DNA from: a virus
Length of the DNA stretch: 22,265 nt
IMG/VR virus record: IMGVR_UViG_3300037517_002742
Span: 1 to 22,265 of that record
Strand: one strand, 5' to 3'
The notes beneath the pieces are model-generated. The model saw only the letters and a program-made list of their open reading frames with translations, searched no databases and had not been told where the DNA came from. Shown in pieces: positions 3,109 to 20,268 of this stretch (the stretch's first letter is position 1; every line of letters begins with the position of its first letter). Position numbers and translations under genes: made by a program.

Positions 3109-3143
3109 AATCAATAGGTTAGGTATAATATAACTAATTGATT
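3109..3143. promoter_or_regulatory. Dyad site 1 (AATCAAT...ATTGATT) before the tape measure gene
   Basis: Two 13-base arms, AATCAATAGGTTA and TAACTAATTGATT, are inverted repeats with two mismatches, separated by a 9-base spacer that contains TATAAT. The same half-site and spacer length recur at 12685-12729 and 20230-20268. It sits in the 94-base gap between the chaperone stop and the tape measure start. The spacer TATAAT could be a -10 element, but no good -35 is present at 16-18 bases. Interpretation as a protein-binding operator is inference. Confidence 0.7.
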
Positions 3144-10927: not shown

Positions 10928-11116
10928 TCACCCTTTGAGTGTGCACTTTCCTGCAAGGGCTTTTCTGGCCAACTTGTCTCCTGGGTACCCAGAAGGTAAG
11001 TCGTCCTTATTACGTGAGTTTCTTCGCGACGGAGTGCCTCCCTGGTACCCTGTTCTAGGCAAGGCCGTTTGAAGCCAAGCAAGCAGCATACCAACCGCCG
11101 TATTATTGATTTTCAT
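10928..11116 (-). CDS. Small unknown protein, last gene of leftward operon
   Basis: A protein of 62 residues. It starts at ATG 11116 behind GAAGGAG at ideal distance, overlapping the last 14 bases of queE in another frame. It is basic, with a short hydrophobic start (AVGMLLAWLQ) and then a polar part containing YQGGTPSRRNSRNKDDLP and YPGDKLARKAL. The excellent ribosome binding site and coupling to queE support a real gene. Another leftward reading frame, 10870-11094, is its shadow. No function is recognised. Confidence 0.7.
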   Translation of the reverse strand: MKINNTAVGMLLAWLQTALPRTGYQGGTPSRRNSRNKDDLPSGYPGDKLARKALAGKCTLKG

Positions 11117-12650
11117 TGTGGATCTCCTTCAGGATTGACGTGCTGATGAGTTCTTCCTCTCGGAAGTCGTCTGGGAACAGATATTTGTGCAGTTGCAAGT
11201 TCAGTCCGATATTCATATCTCGGCAGAGTTCGTCTCCCATCATTAAGTTGAAAAGGTCCACCGCCTTCATGTTTGTGTGGTCCGGTGAGAAGAATATCCG
11301 CGCGTAACACCCCGCATCGATGAGCTTCTTAGTTTCCGTCAGTGCCCACTCGAACTCCGCGGGACTAGATACCACTACTTTGATACAGTGCTGCTTTGAC
11401 CCCAGCTTCGCCATTTCACTTAGCAGAGGTTGCTGGTGCCCGGGTACAGTCGTCGGAGACTTCAAGTCGACTACCAACGACAAGTACGGAACAGCAGCGT
11501 AGTGCATAAATGGATACATCCCAGAAGTTTCAATACTTACCAAGTAGTCCAGAGCAAGGAGCTGCCGAAGGAGATCAATAAACTCGTCTCCGTCCTGCTC
11601 GAGTGGTTCTCCACCCGTGATTGTAACTTTGCGAATACCACCGCCGATATCACGCACACGACTGACGATGTCGCTGGGAGTGAATTGCTGTCCTTGGTGA
11701 ATGGGCCAGGAGTACTTGGTGTCACAGTTATGCACCCACATAGTGTTCAATAGATATGTATTGAACGGTGAGCATGATACATTGAAAACGTCTAGGCTGT
11801 CTATCATCCCGTCTGCTTTCCAATTCGCGCCGGAACCTCGATTTACTTTTTTAACTGAGAGGACTTCGGCTCCATTATGATTTAATTCAGCAAAACTCCT
11901 TTTTCCGTCAGATCGCTTTCCATTCCAGAAATTAGCACCACGCTGGTGAAGATGTGAGTGGCATGTGTGGCAAAGAGAAGAAAGATTGCTCTCAGCATCG
12001 TTCTCACGATCACCATCTTTGTGGTGCACCTCCAACATCCGCACTTTACTGCATAACTCGCATCTTCGCTCTTCTTTCAAATTTCGCGCTTTTAGTTTGT
12101 CGTAATTAACGCTGTGGAAGATAGTGTCTTTATAATTCGGGTTTCGACTTCCCTGTTTGTAGTATGCTATGAGTTCGTTGGGGTGTACGTGGTAAATATC
12201 ATCACCCACTCTTAAATCACCTGCCTCGACTTGCCCTCTGGTTGTAAATATAGGATGTTCTGGAGTCACAAAGAATACAGTTGAATCTAACTTTGTATGA
12301 TTTTTTACCTTCACTTCTACCCACTCAGTTACACTGCGTTTCTGCGTCGCTGTTACTGTGGTAGGTACTATCGCATGATTTTCATCTAGAGTCAGAAGAA
12401 TGTCTCCTGCAACCACTTGACTAAGTTTTTTTCTACCTCCAGATGCTAAATGCACTTCCGGGTGCCTTTTCCCTTCCTTTTGTCCGAAACAATAGGAGCA
12501 GCCAACACGGCATCCCGTCAGTCGTATGAACACTGACATACTACCCTGCCCGAACCCATTGCATTCACCGTCCACTGTTGCGAAGATGGAAAGCACATTC
12601 AAGTGTCCCGTAGTGTTTGCACGTGCTTTCAAATAGGCTTCTGACGCCAT
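11103..12650 (-). CDS. queE: QueE-like 7-carboxy-7-deazaguanine synthase interrupted by an intein
   Basis: The full frame is 515 residues, but residues 54-308 are an intein, leaving a 260-residue QueE. QueE is a radical-SAM enzyme that converts carboxytetrahydropterin to 7-carboxy-7-deazaguanine, a precursor of queuosine and of 7-deazaguanine DNA modifications in phages. The spliced protein would restore RLTGC-RVGC-SYC-DTKYSW: Cys47, Cys51 and Cys309 are the CX3CX2C iron-sulfur cluster ligands. Later TITGGEPLEQ, IETSGMYPF and VVDLKSPTTVPG are QueE motifs. Without splicing the cluster motif would be broken, so activity depends on it. The ribosome binding site is AGGAT, five bases before ATG 12650. 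Partner enzymes lie outside this window if they exist. Confidence 0.9.
   Translation of the reverse strand: MASEAYLKARANTTGHLNVLSIFATVDGECNGFGQGSMSVFIRLTGCRVGCSYCFGQKEGKRHPEVHLASGGRKKLSQVVAGDILLTLDENHAIVPTTVTATQKRSVTEWVEVKVKNHTKLDSTVFFVTPEHPIFTTRGQVEAGDLRVGDDIYHVHPNELIAYYKQGSRNPNYKDTIFHSVNYDKLKARNLKEERRCELCSKVRMLEVHHKDGDRENDAESNLSSLCHTCHSHLHQRGANFWNGKRSDGKRSFAELNHNGAEVLSVKKVNRGSGANWKADGMIDSLDVFNVSCSPFNTYLLNTMWVHNCDTKYSWPIHQGQQFTPSDIVSRVRDIGGGIRKVTITGGEPLEQDGDEFIDLLRQLLALDYLVSIETSGMYPFMHYAAVPYLSLVVDLKSPTTVPGHQQPLLSEMAKLGSKQHCIKVVVSSPAEFEWALTETKKLIDAGCYARIFFSPDHTNMKAVDLFNLMMGDELCRDMNIGLNLQLHKYLFPDDFREEELISTSILKEIHNENQ
11727..12491 (-). mobile_element. Intein with HNH homing endonuclease in queE
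   Basis: Encodes residues 54-308 (255 residues) of the queE frame. It begins with Cys54 (Cys1, directly after CSY) and ends with VHN, followed by Cys309 as the +1 nucleophile, the standard splice junctions. The first part has hedgehog/intein features (VHLASGGRKKLSQVVAGDILL; block B TPEHPIFTTRGQVEAGDL). The middle has a zinc-type HNH motif: CELC, then LEVHHKDGDREN and SLCHTCHSHLH (about residues 197-235). The last part is block F/G, VFNVSC to WVHN. This is one unbroken frame, so the element appears active. Confidence 0.9.
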
Positions 12651-12684: not shown

Positions 12685-12729
12685 ATAGTAATCAATAGGT
12701 TACACTTTACCTAACCTATTGATTACTAT
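12685..12729. promoter_or_regulatory. Dyad site 2, 18-bp perfect arms, before queE
   Basis: ATAGTAATCAATAGGTTA at 12685-12702 is the exact reverse complement of the sequence at 12712-12729, with a 9-base spacer (CACTTTACC). It shares the core half-site AATCAATAGGTTA and the spacer length with sites at 3109 and 20230. It lies in the 130-base gap between the exonuclease stop and the queE start, about 34 bases before the queE ATG. An operator for a dimeric or tetrameric regulator is the simplest reading. Confidence 0.8.
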
Positions 12730-13650: not shown

Positions 13651-14423
13651 TCTTCCACCTCATCATAGAAAAGAGCCGACACTCTATCATCTAATTCCAC
13701 TTGCCGATTGATGGAGGATGTCATGTGTGTCGACGCATATGTAAATCTACTATACAGGTCCCACAGCGACATCGGAAACTTCCCCGCCAAGATATATTCG
13801 GCATGCTTCTTTGGAACCCAAGGAGCAGCTTCCAGTCGCGCACGAACTGATTCTTCTGATACCTGCGTGTGTCCCCAGAGCTCCCAGCGTGACCCCAGTT
13901 TGGGTAGATTCCCCACCATCGCGCTCAAACTAGATGTGATCACTTTTAGATCCTCCCCGATGACACCCTTGTAATGCTTTGCGGAGACTGATCCAAACTC
14001 ACGGCCTACTACCATACCGTTTTTACAAACCAGCTGATGCGCTGCAAGTCGGATATCTAATTTCCAGCTCAGGTCGTAACTATTGGTGATGCGTAGAGCT
14101 GTATGCACCACATCACCAACCTGGGGTTCTAATTTCAATTGTGGCAGGCGGTACTCTGCGAGCATCCGTGCGCCTTCGTTCGTGGTAACGATGTTGCGCT
14201 TGTAGCCCGTAAGATCAATCCCTTTCAAAGCCTGCTCAACTGTGTCAATCAAAATACGGTGCGGAACGGGTTGGTAGTTTTTTCCCGCGACTGCAAAGAT
14301 CTTCTTTCGATCGTGGCTGAAAATGCATTGACGGGATTGGAACTCTCTTACCTGATTCAATTCAGGGAAGGCCTGATTGAGGGGAAGTACGACGGGATCA
14401 TTCTTCCAATCGAAAAGTTTCAT
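13647..14423 (-). CDS. DUF932-like phage/plasmid protein
   Basis: A protein of 258 residues starting behind TTAGGAGAACTACATG. The stretches REFQSRQCIFSHDR, KNYQPVPHRILID, LRITNSYDLSWKLDIRLAAHQLVCKNGMVVG and VSAKHYKG are hallmarks of DUF932 (phage/plasmid-like TIGR03299 proteins), whose role is unknown but which is often found near replication or anti-defence genes. The stop overlaps the downstream exonuclease start by four bases, so both are probably translated together. No missing segments are evident. Confidence 0.75.
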   Translation of the reverse strand: MKLFDWKNDPVVLPLNQAFPELNQVREFQSRQCIFSHDRKKIFAVAGKNYQPVPHRILIDTVEQALKGIDLTGYKRNIVTTNEGARMLAEYRLPQLKLEPQVGDVVHTALRITNSYDLSWKLDIRLAAHQLVCKNGMVVGREFGSVSAKHYKGVIGEDLKVITSSLSAMVGNLPKLGSRWELWGHTQVSEESVRARLEAAPWVPKKHAEYILAGKFPMSLWDLYSRFTYASTHMTSSINRQVELDDRVSALFYDEVEE

Positions 14424-14443
14424 GTAGTTCTCCTAAGTAGACT

Positions 14444-14463
14444 GCCCGCGCGGTTACGCGGGC
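14444..14463 (-). other. Intercistronic hairpin between ParB-like and DUF932 genes
   Basis: GCCCGCG and CGCGGGC form a 7-bp stem with a 6-base loop, 12 bases after the ParB-like stop. It is not followed by a T-run on the minus strand and lies just before the ribosome binding site of the next gene. This is the same arrangement as the three repeated elements at 17.7, 18.7 and 19.4 kb, so an RNA-processing or stability role is plausible. Confidence 0.55.
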
Positions 14464-14475
14464 ATTGTTGTGGAA

Positions 14476-15510: not shown

Positions 15511-15550
15511 TTTGTTTCTCCTTGTAAAACGGTTACGCGACTATTCGCAT

Positions 15551-15620
15551 GTAGAATATATACCCCGAATGGCGCGATTCTACTTCGCACCCAGGAGGAT
15601 ATTTTTTTGAGAATATCCTC
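15551..15620 (-). promoter_or_regulatory. Upstream region of ParB-like gene with two inverted repeats
   Basis: GTAGAAT (15551-15557) and ATTCTAC (15577-15583) form an inverted repeat spaced by 19 bases, overlapping an AT-rich GTATATATTC stretch that could hold a -10 box on the minus strand. Upstream, GAGGATATT (15595-15603) and AATATCCTC (15612-15620) form a 9-bp stem with an A-rich loop. This fits an autoregulated promoter or operator for the ParB-like gene; no convincing -35 hexamer was found. Confidence 0.45.
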
Positions 15621-15636
15621 GAGGCTGCGTGGTAGT

Positions 15637-16056
15637 TTAGAAGTCGTCCTCTTCCTCCTCCGAATACTCTTCGTCATCACAGTCTTCATCAAACGCCGTC
15701 GGTATGAAGATGTTTCCAATCTGGATGACGCCGTTGTGACTAGCCACATCTGGGAAGGAATCAAACTCGTAGATGTTGCCAAGACCTATATTAGGCCCCG
15801 TTATAGCTAGCGGATCGCGAATATCCTCCAGCGCAATAACACCAATCAGTCCTGCGTCCACGGGATACTGTTTGCCGTTTTGGTCGTGATACGTGCCATC
15901 CCCATAGGCCGTACCCTTACAGCCAAACTTGCGTCCATCGGCCAGCGTGAACACACCGTCAGTCACGCATCTATCAGTGATCGTCAAGGAGCAGAATTCA
16001 TCCCACTCAGGGTGCATGACGTAACACAAATCACCAATCCAATATTTCTGTTTCAT
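15637..16056 (-). CDS. Conserved phage protein of unknown function, acidic tail
   Basis: A protein of 139 residues behind TAGGAGAAAGACATG. It contains YWIGDLCYVM, FGCKGTAYGDGTYHDQNG and YPVDAGLIGVIALED, a pattern I recognise from a family of small phage proteins without known role. The last 20 residues are very acidic (Asp/Glu-rich, ending EEEEDDF). Gene spacing is tight (nine bases to the preceding stop). The acidic end could mimic nucleic acid or chelate metal, but that is inference. Confidence 0.7.
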   Translation of the reverse strand: MKQKYWIGDLCYVMHPEWDEFCSLTITDRCVTDGVFTLADGRKFGCKGTAYGDGTYHDQNGKQYPVDAGLIGVIALEDIRDPLAITGPNIGLGNIYEFDSFPDVASHNGVIQIGNIFIPTAFDEDCDDEEYSEEEEDDF

Positions 16057-17465: not shown

Positions 17466-17675
17466 TCACCTTTCCTGGGCTTCTACCCAGAAGCTAGTGT
17501 TATCAGGGTTATCATCGATGTATTCGGCATTGCATTCATCTGCATACGCTTGTGCATCTGTCCAAGTCATGAAAGGCTCGGAAGTTTTTCCGTGCGAATT
17601 GATAACAACGAACAATTTCTTCGCTATAGAAATTTCACGCACCTTACCACTCAATTTCAATACTGTTTCTGCCAT
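17466..17675 (-). CDS. Small unknown protein, downstream of repeat element A
   Basis: A protein of 69 residues if ATG 17675 is used; the TTAGGAG ribosome binding site is then six bases away, whereas ATG 17681 would be only one base away. Motifs are LSGKVREISIAKKLFVV and WTDAQAYADECNAEY. No family is recognised. It is one of three genes directly preceded by the conserved RNA element, so its translation may be controlled by it. Confidence 0.6.
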   Translation of the reverse strand: MAETVLKLSGKVREISIAKKLFVVINSHGKTSEPFMTWTDAQAYADECNAEYIDDNPDNTSFWVEAQER

Positions 17676-17681
17676 TTCCAT

Positions 17682-17743
17682 CTCCTAAATAAATATGAGC
17701 GGAGTTGCTCCCGGGTTGGCCTGTTGCCAAGCCAACCGAAGAG
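17682..17743 (-). promoter_or_regulatory. Repeat RNA element, copy A
   Basis: On the minus strand: a hairpin (stem GGTTGGC/GCCAACC, 17714-17737), three bases, then GAGCAACTCCGCTC (17697-17710), an AT-rich stretch, and TTAGGAG ending at 17682. GAGC and GCTC can pair, exposing CTCC in the loop; that CTCC is complementary to the GGAG of the ribosome binding site. Copies at 18.70 and 19.34 kb share the layout. Confidence 0.8.
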
Positions 17744-17744
17744 T

Positions 17745-17948
17745 TCACCGAATGTTTACCCAGGCCATGCAGGTTCGGAGCACATTGTTGTAATCACCGC
17801 TCGTTGCCTCATCCCGGAATTTGGTAACCTCCTCTGGCGGAACCTTGGCCCTGCGTAATTCACGCTGCACTGATCCGATAATCATAAAAGCATTGCCGTC
17901 TTGCCCAGTAAGCTTCACTGTCACGTTGGGATATTTTACGTCTGTCAT
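17745..17948 (-). CDS. Conserved small phage protein
   Basis: A protein of 67 residues behind AAAGGAGAAATGAA. The sequence VTVKLTGQDGNAFMIIG, then RAKVPPEEVTKF and ATSGDYNNVLRTCMAWV, is a widespread small phage protein pattern that I recognise without a known role. It stops just before repeat element A. No unusual residues are seen. Confidence 0.7.
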   Translation of the reverse strand: MTDVKYPNVTVKLTGQDGNAFMIIGSVQRELRRAKVPPEEVTKFRDEATSGDYNNVLRTCMAWVNIR

Positions 17949-17960
17949 TTCATTTCTCCT

Positions 17961-18317
17961 TTAGCCTAACCAAACTGTGGTACGTTGAAAAGTGCCAGAA
18001 TTGAGGTGCACCTCAATTGGGAACCTAGCACCTCGGCCTTCTAGTCCGTTACCGTTTTTCATTCGGGTTACCATTTCCCACGCCTCTACCCGACTCAAGT
18101 TCAAGTAGGTGGAAAACCCACTTTGGAAGTACTTACCCGTCGGGCCCCCATCCTCATTTACTGTGGGTGCATCCCGCGTGATATGTACTGCGAAACTAAC
18201 TTTCGGGCCTGTTACATTGCGTATGAACTTCACTGCATCATCCAAAGGCAGCAAGTACTTGCTTACAACCAGCTTGCCTGAGTCTGACTCTTCGACTGCA
18301 TAGGGTTTAGCTTTCAT
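17961..18317 (-). CDS. Small unknown protein
   Basis: A protein of 118 residues from ATG 18317, preceded by AAGGAGGGCC; a longer frame from 18395 lies inside the upstream gene and is rejected. It contains DDAVKFIRNVTGP, FAVHITRDAP and YLNLSRVEAWEMVTRMKNG. It overlaps the previous gene by 11 bases, so coupled translation is likely. No family is recognised. Confidence 0.65.
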   Translation of the reverse strand: MKAKPYAVEESDSGKLVVSKYLLPLDDAVKFIRNVTGPKVSFAVHITRDAPTVNEDGGPTGKYFQSGFSTYLNLSRVEAWEMVTRMKNGNGLEGRGARFPIEVHLNSGTFQRTTVWLG

Positions 18318-18693
18318 CTTCCGGCCCTCCTTGCTCTTCCTTCGCCCAGGAGTAGTAATCCATGACGTAAGTCGGGTACAACTGGTTACCACCATTGCAG
18401 CGCGCTACAGAGTCTTCAAACCAGCGGATGCCCATTTGCAGTCTAGGGATTGCAAAGTGGCCGATGTCATCTTGGTGTACCGAGAAGAACAAATCAGTGC
18501 GCCCACCGGTGCCATCAACGATCTTGCCATCTTTCAGATCGGGGTAGGTATTGATTTCTTCCAGGTACTGAACCCGGGCCTTGAACTCCTCAAGCATAAA
18601 GTTTTCGAAGTCTGCAATCTTGTCCGGACCGACAAGTGTTCCCGGCCATACACAAACTTGCGAATAACCTTCCTTACGTTCAATTGCTTTCAT
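18307..18693 (-). CDS. Conserved small phage protein, downstream of repeat element B
   Basis: A protein of 128 residues. ATG 18693 lies five bases after AGGAGG; GTG 18696 is possible but less favoured. The segments VCVWPGTLVG, FENFMLEEFKARVQYLEEI, GGRTDLFFSVHQDDIGHF and LQMGIRWFEDSVA match a phage-wide small protein of unknown function. The Asp/Trp/His pattern could form a small active site but this is speculative. It is the second gene placed under a copy of the repeat RNA element. Confidence 0.7.
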   Translation of the reverse strand: MKAIERKEGYSQVCVWPGTLVGPDKIADFENFMLEEFKARVQYLEEINTYPDLKDGKIVDGTGGRTDLFFSVHQDDIGHFAIPRLQMGIRWFEDSVARCNGGNQLYPTYVMDYYSWAKEEQGGPEDES

Positions 18694-18698
18694 CACAA

Positions 18699-18752
18699 CC
18701 TCCTAAATGTATATGAGCGGAGTTGCTCTCGAAGCCCGCTGTCACCGGGCTT
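18699..18752 (-). promoter_or_regulatory. Repeat RNA element, copy B
   Basis: Hairpin AAGCCCG/CGGGCTT (18732-18752, loop GTGACAG), then three bases, the conserved GAGCAACTCCGCTC (18715-18728), an AT-rich stretch and TTAGGAGG at the ribosome binding site of the 128-residue protein. The hairpin sequence differs from copies A and C but the fold and spacing persist. Confidence 0.75.
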
Positions 18753-18758
18753 GAAGTG

Positions 18759-19070
18759 TTACTCCTGCGCAGTCTTCTCAACGAACGAGACTGCCTTAAT
18801 CACCGGCTGGAGAATACGGCGCTTCACGCTCTCCATCGTAATGCTAGTTGACGCATTGTGTCCGGTCCGGAGAGCTCCTGCTTTTCCCAAGTACCAAAAC
18901 ACCTGACCATACGTTGTCAGTTTGTTGTAGGTCTCCGATGTCCAGGCTGTACCGTCTGCATTACGGGTTCTCGTGAATACTCGGAACTTGGAGGACTTCC
19001 CTTTGATTTCCTTCTCACCTATTAAATCGAAGTGGACTGCCAGCTGCTGCTGAATAGTAAGTTTTGACAT
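18759..19070 (-). CDS. Small unknown protein
   Basis: A protein of 103 residues starting at ATG 19070; the TTAGGAG ribosome binding site lies inside the last codons of the upstream gene, so the two are translationally coupled. It contains LTIQQQLAVHFDLIGEKEIKG, KFRVFTRTRNADGTAW and WYLGKAGALRTGHNAS. The basic mid-part and Trp/Arg pattern may suggest nucleic-acid binding, but no family is recognised. Confidence 0.65.
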   Translation of the reverse strand: MSKLTIQQQLAVHFDLIGEKEIKGKSSKFRVFTRTRNADGTAWTSETYNKLTTYGQVFWYLGKAGALRTGHNASTSITMESVKRRILQPVIKAVSFVEKTAQE

Positions 19071-19071
19071 T

Positions 19072-19335
19072 TCAGGCTCCTAAGTGAACGACTTTGGAAA
19101 GTTCTTTCAGCACGGTAGCATAACCATGCTGCTTGAGAAGCTCTTTCAATTCATCTTCAGATTCCTGCGAACCGAAAGTGCTCAACCGTTCTGCGTCGAT
19201 ACAGGATTCCACCAAGCACTCGTTATCCGTCTCTTCTGCATACGCAAGAACGTCGAATCCAATTGCATTCCAGACTTGGTAGATGTCGTACAGAAGTTCG
19301 TCAGAAAACGAAATCAATTTTTCAACTGCTTCCAT
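19072..19335 (-). CDS. Small acidic protein, downstream of repeat element C
   Basis: A protein of 87 residues. ATG 19335 is favoured over ATG 19338 because AGGAG is six bases upstream of it. The sequence is acidic and helical, with FSDELLYDIYQVW, YAEETDNECLVESCID and SEDELKELLKQHGY. No family is recognised. It is the third gene under a repeat RNA element. Confidence 0.6.
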   Translation of the reverse strand: MEAVEKLISFSDELLYDIYQVWNAIGFDVLAYAEETDNECLVESCIDAERLSTFGSQESEDELKELLKQHGYATVLKELSKVVHLGA

Positions 19336-19341
19336 CATGCT

Positions 19342-19402
19342 CTCCTAAATGAATATGAGCGGAGTTGCTCCCGGGTGGGTCTGTTTCCAAACCCACCGAA
19401 GA
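19342..19402 (-). promoter_or_regulatory. Repeat RNA element, copy C
   Basis: Hairpin GGTGGGT/ACCCACC (19374-19397) with loop TTGGAAACAG, then three bases, the conserved GAGCAACTCCGCTC (19357-19370), an AT-rich stretch and TTAGGAG. Relative to copy A two stem positions are changed on both sides (T-A to G-C, C-G to T-A), so pairing is preserved. Confidence 0.8.
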
Positions 19403-19413
19403 GGATTCCGGTG

Positions 19414-19650: not shown

Positions 19651-20037
19651 TTTGAAACTCCTATTGAGTGTGTGACAACGAAATCAAGTACCCTATGAAA
19701 TAAGATACTTGACAGGGTTGTCGCCGCTGCCGGAACCGTTGTCACGAACCCTGCGACTGTGTGTAAGATCAGGTACTATATAGGTAATACAAGTATTTGG
19801 TGTTCCCGTCGTTTGGGTTCCTTGGTTCCGTGAGAGAAGATGTTCGAGGATTGAAACCGTTGCAGGAGCACCCCTGGTCTGCTGTCCTTCCTAGGTGTCC
19901 GTTTGTCTTAATTGGGATCTTACTAGGAAGTAATCTTTCGCTTACTTATCTTCTCCGTGGTCCCGGGTGGGGCCACTTATGGGTCGTTTTGTTAAAGAGC
20001 GCGTCTGCGGGGTGGTTCCCCTTGATAACTAATCTTG
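19651..20037 (-). promoter_or_regulatory. Long structured leader of leftward operon
   Basis: About 390 bases lie between the predicted promoter and the first gene, with no convincing gene on either strand. Near the gene, GTGACAACG (19672-19680) pairs with CGTTGTCAC (19737-19745), enclosing TCAAGTA/TACTTGA (19684-19690 with 19706-19712). CAGGGTT (19713-19719) can instead pair with AACCCTG (19747-19753), a fold that competes with or is knotted through the first. A further AAGTAA/TTACTT hairpin is at 19928-19947. This could be a regulatory RNA or antitermination region. Confidence 0.5.
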
Positions 20038-20044
20038 CATTTTA

Positions 20045-20072
20045 AGTATAATACCTAATGAAAATTTGTCAA
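20045..20072 (-). promoter_or_regulatory. Sigma70-type promoter for leftward operon
   Basis: On the minus strand, TTGACA (20067-20072) is followed after 16 bases by TATACT (20045-20050). The hexamers match consensus six of six and five of six. Transcription would start near 20038 and run left through the leader into the small genes. Confidence 0.7.
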
Positions 20073-20229: not shown

Positions 20230-20268
20230 TAAATCAATGACTTAGGCTTGACGTAACCTATTGATTTA
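20230..20268. promoter_or_regulatory. Dyad site 3 between unknown gene and leftward promoter
   Basis: TAAATCAATGACTTA (20230-20244) and TAACCTATTGATTTA (20254-20268) form an inverted repeat with three mismatches near the centre and a 9-base spacer. The right arm has the same core half-site as sites 1 and 2. It overlaps the last codon of the 20266-20820 gene and lies about 160 bases upstream of the leftward promoter. Confidence 0.7.

Follow-up and report, generated by a model that had tools for sequence, protein, structure and literature searches.

Within a 22,265-base virus fragment from one uncultured tailed phage (the window, by which the whole analysed stretch of DNA is meant), the leftward genes are tightly packed, with most junctions overlapping or spanning no more than 12 nt. 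Among the gaps between leftward genes, the first three to exceed 50 nt measure 78, 65 and 69 nt, and hold, respectively, copies C, B and A of the same segment, all on the minus strand, in which a hairpin is followed by a block of fixed sequence. The question raised by this locus is what the segment does at these three positions, and whether it acts as RNA or as DNA.

A block repeated ahead of three gene clusters

A pattern search with GAGCAACTCCGCTCATATNNATTTAGGAG returned three perfect matches in the window, all on the minus strand (Table 1), against none in 100 shuffles and none expected by chance. A first-pass annotation had placed the copies at 17682, 18699 and 19342; the exact block is indeed found at the first and last of these positions, whereas the second copy begins at 18700. 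Every copy has an ATG exactly 6 nt past AGGAG, at 17675 (A), 18693 (B) and 19335 (C), and this constant distance makes these ATGs the likelier starts of the genes concerned. The first 18 nt of the block are unchanged while stems and flanks have diverged, a degree of conservation that exceeds the needs of a ribosome binding site (RBS). Copies A and C are 90% alike over the 63 nt of the entire element, and 13 of the first 15 coding bases are common to B and C (score 11, background maximum 8), a likeness in early codons that may mean that part of the conservation stems from recent duplication. A covariance model search revealed no fourth copy in the window, and the covariance models of the Rfam families gave no match at gathering score.

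Table 1. Positions of the repeated elements, the genes that follow them and the leader signals, numbered along the window.
Feature	Position	Strand	Description	Remark
Block, copy A	17682..17710	-	GAGCAACTCCGCTCATATTTATTTAGGAG, 29 nt, including the Shine-Dalgarno sequence	pattern search
Block, copy B	18700..18728	-	GAGCAACTCCGCTCATATACATTTAGGAG, 29 nt	pattern search
Block, copy C	19342..19370	-	GAGCAACTCCGCTCATATTCATTTAGGAG, 29 nt	pattern search
Hairpin, copy A	17708..17743	-	CTCTT C GGTTGGCTTG [GCAA] CAGGCCAACC C GGGAG	overlaps the first 3 nt of the block
Hairpin, copy B	18726..18758	-	CACTT C AAGCCCG [GTGACAG] CGGGCTT C GAGAG	
Hairpin, copy C	19368..19403	-	CTCTT C GGTGGGTTTG [GAAA] CAGACCCACC C GGGAG	
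First gene after copy A	17466..17675	-	69 aa, no family match (scan with the frame from 17681)	ATG 6 nt after AGGAG
First gene after copy B	18307..18693	-	128 aa, no significant family match	
First gene after copy C	19072..19335	-	87 aa, no significant family match	
Candidate sigma70 promoter of the leftward operon	20045..20072	-	TTGACA-16-TATACT	11/12
Perfect BoxA in the operon leader	19990..20000	-	GCTCTTTAACA	consensus GYTCTTTAANA (PMC5725501)

The copies sit in the leftward, non-structural gene region, and each heads a run of closely packed genes rather than a single gene. Copy C is followed by genes at 19335-19072 and 19070-18759, copy B by genes at 18693-18307, 18317-17961 (overlapping the first) and 17948-17745, and copy A by genes at 17675-17466 and 17463-17278 and by further genes. 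The suggestion that three small genes are the targets was accordingly replaced, as each site heads a tightly packed run within one operon. Among the cluster proteins scanned, the sole informative family match was that of 17948-17745 to phrog_1933, a family of unknown function. Later long gaps in the leftward genes (after 15637, 14476 and 12781) have a strong hairpin after the stop codon and no block, indicating that hairpins are common in the operon and that the block is the specific part; since hairpins trail the stops there too, the hairpin may be a general feature of 3' ends, with the block alone being specific to the three sites.

The candidate sigma70 promoter of the operon is followed by a leader of about 390 nt, in which a small hairpin, GGGGAACCACCCC, precedes the perfect BoxA. 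This combination suggests that the leftward operon undergoes Nus-dependent antitermination, its host being one that has the gamma-proteobacterial BoxA. At the three copies themselves, no match was found to a sigma70 promoter (-35/-10 hexamers with 16-18 nt spacing), and the block misses the BoxA consensus by 3-4 mismatches, the only perfect match being that in the leader. A distance of four or fewer from GYTCTTTAANA is reached by 3% of the 11-mers in the window, and a BoxA within the block, considered in view of the perfect leader BoxA, was rejected on the consensus.

Several other features of the window were recorded. A stop-hairpin-TTAGGAG arrangement with a 9-bp stem and no block occupies 14424-14475 (minus strand), ahead of a DUF932 gene, and a long hairpin lies at 15511-15636 (minus strand), immediately past the stop at 15637, in the gap of 126 nt that separates this stop from a ParB-like gene. 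Three related 35-nt palindromes of the form AATCAATAGGTTA-N9-TAACCTATTGATT are located at 3109-3143, 12690-12724 and 20232-20266, with 2, 0 and 3 mismatches, respectively, where none is expected; in the second, the stem is perfect over 18 bp and, on the minus strand, a T run comes after it. These palindromes are candidate operators, terminators or ParB sites, the last being included because the phage encodes a ParB-like protein. Finally, the gene at 11103-12650 (minus strand) encodes a QueE-like radical SAM protein with an in-frame, intein-like insertion (HINT and HNH matches), apparently inside the iron-sulfur cysteine motif (CRVGCSY / CDTKYSW).

Structure and covariation of the hairpins

The hairpins begin 1 nt (A), 0 nt (B) and 10 nt (C) downstream of the preceding stop codon, in keeping with the first-pass description of a hairpin after the upstream stop. 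Copies A and C have 10-bp stems with GNRA tetraloops (GCAA in A, GAAA in C), and between them two pairs have changed in a compensatory manner (U-A/G-C and C-G/U-A) and a single base of the loop differs, as had also been noted. The B stem, of 7 bp, is unrelated in sequence to these, and the earlier view that B has a different stem within the same architecture stood up well, with a C.C mismatch that is invariant in all three hairpins and a kept loop motif. Conversely, what had been taken for a three-base spacer between hairpin and block proved to be this conserved mismatch together with the beginning of a basal helix. That helix pairs CTCTT with GGGAG in copies A and C and CACTT with GAGAG in copy B, and its final three bases are the GAG with which the block opens.

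Covariation was assessed on a structure-guided alignment, for which three N were put in the B loop so that the stems line up. All seven alignable stem pairs are changed on both sides in at least one copy, and 95.6% of cells are paired, whereas shuffles gave 76.4% and sliding of the partner strand no more than 57.8%; on this alignment, no shuffle reached the observed pairing together with seven double-sided changes. These apparent compensatory changes come from three paralogous copies in one 22-kb fragment, and kinship of this type can inflate covariation. The loop motif GGNRACAG is common to A, B and C, although the B hairpin is otherwise nearly unlike the other two; MAFFT, unaided, also lined up these loop letters, and the motif occurred in 0.4% of shuffled B hairpins. 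Stems of the observed length or longer directly before the block arose in shuffles with frequencies of 0.005 (A), 0.04 (B) and 0.008 (C).

Predicted folding was better in the transcribed strand than in the other strand, with energies of -23.4 versus -17.0 kcal/mol for A, -23.4 versus -16.9 kcal/mol for C and -14.2 versus -13.5 kcal/mol for B, and corresponding z values of -4.7 versus -2.4 (A), -4.1 versus -1.6 (C) and -2.7 versus -1.1 (B). The asymmetry arises from G-U pairs, whereas a DNA palindrome or cruciform would be symmetric, and better folding of the transcribed strand indicates that the 29-nt block and the preceding hairpin are most likely an RNA element. For the copy B hairpin considered alone the case is weak, to judge from the stem frequency of 0.04 and the z value of -2.7. 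The hairpins of the three copies have no T run, and an RNase III site was, in our own judgement, unlikely given the short stems.

The first-pass annotation had proposed a covariance search of related phages; compensatory changes were found among the three copies, but homologues outside the record were not. Block patterns returned nothing real from the IMG/VR and GTDB genomes, where matches read in context looked like chance (one 14-base pattern, run against IMG/VR, was too unspecific to use), and blastn against GenBank phages gave no homologue, with the proviso that all three collections may omit records very near the window. The ParB-like, exonuclease and DUF932 proteins retrieved no relatives from IMG/VR, whereas the tail protein retrieved eight distant ones, in which neither the block nor a match to the covariance model was found. 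When the fetched loci were surveyed for 18-mers repeated ahead of start codons, the window and a distant relative, L129, were the only two to stand out, and the start-associated repeats of L129 differ from the block described here. They comprise a 130-nt unit in three copies (14155-14284, 15648-15777 and 17683-17812); there is also a motif around AACAAAAAACGGAG with six start-proximal copies, and the repeat positions include 14771, 15114 and 18622 as well.

Possible functions of the repeated element

The first-pass annotation had envisaged a switch in which a GAGC/GCTC hairpin exposes CTCC for pairing with the GGAG of the Shine-Dalgarno (SD) sequence. Such a self-contained device, perhaps toggled when a ribosome occupies the upstream stop, has in its favour the CTCC/GGAG complementarity present in all copies and the behaviour of B, for which partition-function folding from the stop codon gave a CTCC:SD pairing probability of 0.28-0.48, rising to 0.42-0.87 when the first 12 nt past the stop were held open. 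The same pairing was at most 0.06 in A and 0 in C, and the GAGC:GCTC pairing, possible on paper, reached up to 0.86 in B but was at most 0.01 in A and 0.11 in C, and is not the predicted fold of either. Opening the RBS was calculated to cost 2.0 (A), 5.3 (B) and 5.5 (C) kcal/mol, which is not high beside the 1.0-9.3 kcal/mol of other genes of the phage, and the predicted pairing partners of the block differ in each copy. Taken together, the low pairing in A and C, the ordinary opening cost and the differing partners indicate that the copies have no shared autoinhibitory fold. Indeed, folding with and without constraints yielded no common fold that pairs the SD in all copies, and SD sequestration, the GAGC/GCTC hairpin and the ribosome-toggled switch were dropped for lack of a common structure, leaving self-pairing as the least probable of the mechanisms considered. 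The broader idea of a shared element acting at the RNA level fared better than the CTCC mechanism attached to it, being favoured by the compensatory changes, the kept loop, the strand-asymmetric folding and the constant SD-ATG spacing.

The best explanation, to which we assign a probability of roughly 0.45, is that the three copies represent a single RNA cassette, reused three times within one leftward operon, through which a factor supplied in trans acts at translation initiation of the three clusters. The 5' part of the cassette would be an mRNA hairpin just past the stop codon of the preceding gene, in which pairing and loop matter and the letters of the stem do not; the 3' part would be a leader of 29 nt, fixed in sequence and closing with the SD, 6 nt ahead of the ATG. 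The hairpin may shield each cluster from the message that precedes it. The fixed leader, made up of GAGCAACUCCGCUCAUAU and the SD, may be read by a phage or host protein, or by an RNA, and translation initiation at all three clusters would thereby be set jointly. The repeat, the covariation, the kept loop, the strand asymmetry of folding, the SD/ATG spacing and the position in the operon are the components of this explanation that derive from sequence analysis. The putative trans-acting factor is suggested by the invariant 18-nt stretch, which takes up no structure common to the copies, beside the SD and behind a loop-conserved hairpin; this stretch is best read as the site of such a factor, and its lack of a common self-structure fits recognition in trans.

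The block may be a promoter for a phage-encoded or alternative (non-sigma70) RNA polymerase, a possibility that counts against the RNA-cassette reading; three sub-operons would then start at the SD, with the hairpin ending or stabilising the preceding transcript. This is rather unlikely, yet it deserves weight because the nearest analogue, the ESAS repeats of cluster K phages, has been reinterpreted as a SigA-like promoter with an inverted repeat (PMC11373665), and because the 130-nt repeat of L129 is promoter-like, a TTGCAA-16-TATAAA being readable in it by eye. It would also account for a 29-bp block that is fixed in sequence, next to a hairpin that is not, at three long gaps in the operon. 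The first-pass expectation that the element is not a promoter held for sigma70, the one class searched for at the copies. Further points against a promoter are that no -35 region is common beyond the block, that no polymerase or sigma gene was seen among the proteins scanned (the rest of the genome being missing), that the hairpins have no T run, and that a strong promoter is already present upstream. Alternatively, the cassette could be a duplicated module boundary that recombination has maintained and that does no more for regulation than supply a good RBS. Repeats ahead of start codons could serve as recombination points, and the near-identity of the entire element in A and C and the early codons common to B and C are as duplication would leave them; compensatory stem changes, a kept loop and 18 invariant nucleotides beside diverged stems and flanks are more than this would require, and we consider it improbable.

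In phage lambda the BoxA is CGCUCUUA, and nut sites of the lambda type have BoxA followed by boxB. The copies might themselves be nut-like, with a degenerate BoxA, CGCUCAUA, that follows the hairpin and recruits NusB-S10 beside the SD, the outcome being either antitermination loaded anew or, as in the case of suhB, a block to ribosome entry. In the operon leader, too, the perfect BoxA comes after a small hairpin, in a similar order and, by eye, at a similar distance from it (7 nt, against 6 nt in the copies). There is precedent in suhB, translation of which is repressed by a BoxA 6 nt from the SD (PMC5725501), and in phage mEp021, whose three nut sites include one downstream of gene gp32 (PMC11893012). 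Despite these parallels, the mismatches of the block to the consensus, at a level attained by 3% of 11-mers in the window, make nut-like copies slightly less probable still than a duplicated boundary. A yet more improbable variant is a nut-like hairpin and BoxA fused to the RBS, by which the Nus complex loaded at the leader BoxA would also gate translation at the three internal clusters; if true, one host complex would control both elongation and initiation along a phage operon.

Comparison with known start-associated repeats and BoxA systems

Start-associated repeats (SAS and ESAS) have been described in actinophages since 2011, and the papers considered here still call their role unclear. 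In cluster K phages the SAS, GGGATAGGAGCCC (13 nt), is found at start codons, accompanied by the ESAS inverted repeats. The copies described here resemble this system (PMC11373665) in that an asymmetric block, which carries the SD core (AGGAG) a few nt upstream of the start codon, is repeated at non-structural genes and mostly in the larger intergenic gaps; in this respect, the layout of a SAS is seen in all three copies. An inverted repeat just upstream accompanies a subset of the cluster K sites (PMC11373665), as opposed to all three copies in the window. The 29-nt block is unrelated in sequence to the 13-nt SAS, and no match to the SAS consensus with two or fewer mismatches was found at the copies, matches elsewhere in the window being at chance level. 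The authors of the cluster K work found little support for RNA hairpins in the ESAS, where departures from the repeat fail to preserve pairing. In the ESAS it is thus the sequence of the inverted repeat that is conserved, whereas here pairing is kept and the letters of the stem are free to vary; the ESAS also have SigA-like -35/-10 hexamers, whereas no sigma70-type hexamers occur at the copies. For comparison, ESAS arms are visible in phage Anaya, in which the covariance model gave no match, while the arms of copy B are unrelated in sequence to those of A and C.

Phages of Microbacterium cluster EF have an independent SAS-like motif (PMC7302621). It is likewise an RBS motif (GGGAAAGGACCCC, 13 bp), with a weakly conserved upstream extension, but differs in sequence from the block, and no covarying hairpin is described in the passages considered. 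Among BoxA systems, suhB (PMC5725501) offers a protein-binding RNA site directly upstream of an SD, and a perfect BoxA is present in the leader here, although the repeated block itself departs from the BoxA consensus. The nut sites of mEp021 (PMC11893012) are phage RNA sites that combine a hairpin (boxB) with BoxA and number more than two per genome; the lambda-type order, however, has BoxA before boxB, no N-like gene was identified in the window, and the nut sites are not described as lying on an SD.

On present sequence comparisons, the element would be a variant of the start-associated repeats, with a covarying hairpin and an unrelated sequence, and not a member of the SAS/ESAS. A phage with a proteobacterial-type BoxA would then have an independent start-associated repeat whose hairpin behaves as RNA in predictions, such that the question of RNA versus DNA action of these repeats becomes directly testable; it also suggests that common translational control of scattered gene clusters may have evolved more than once in phages.
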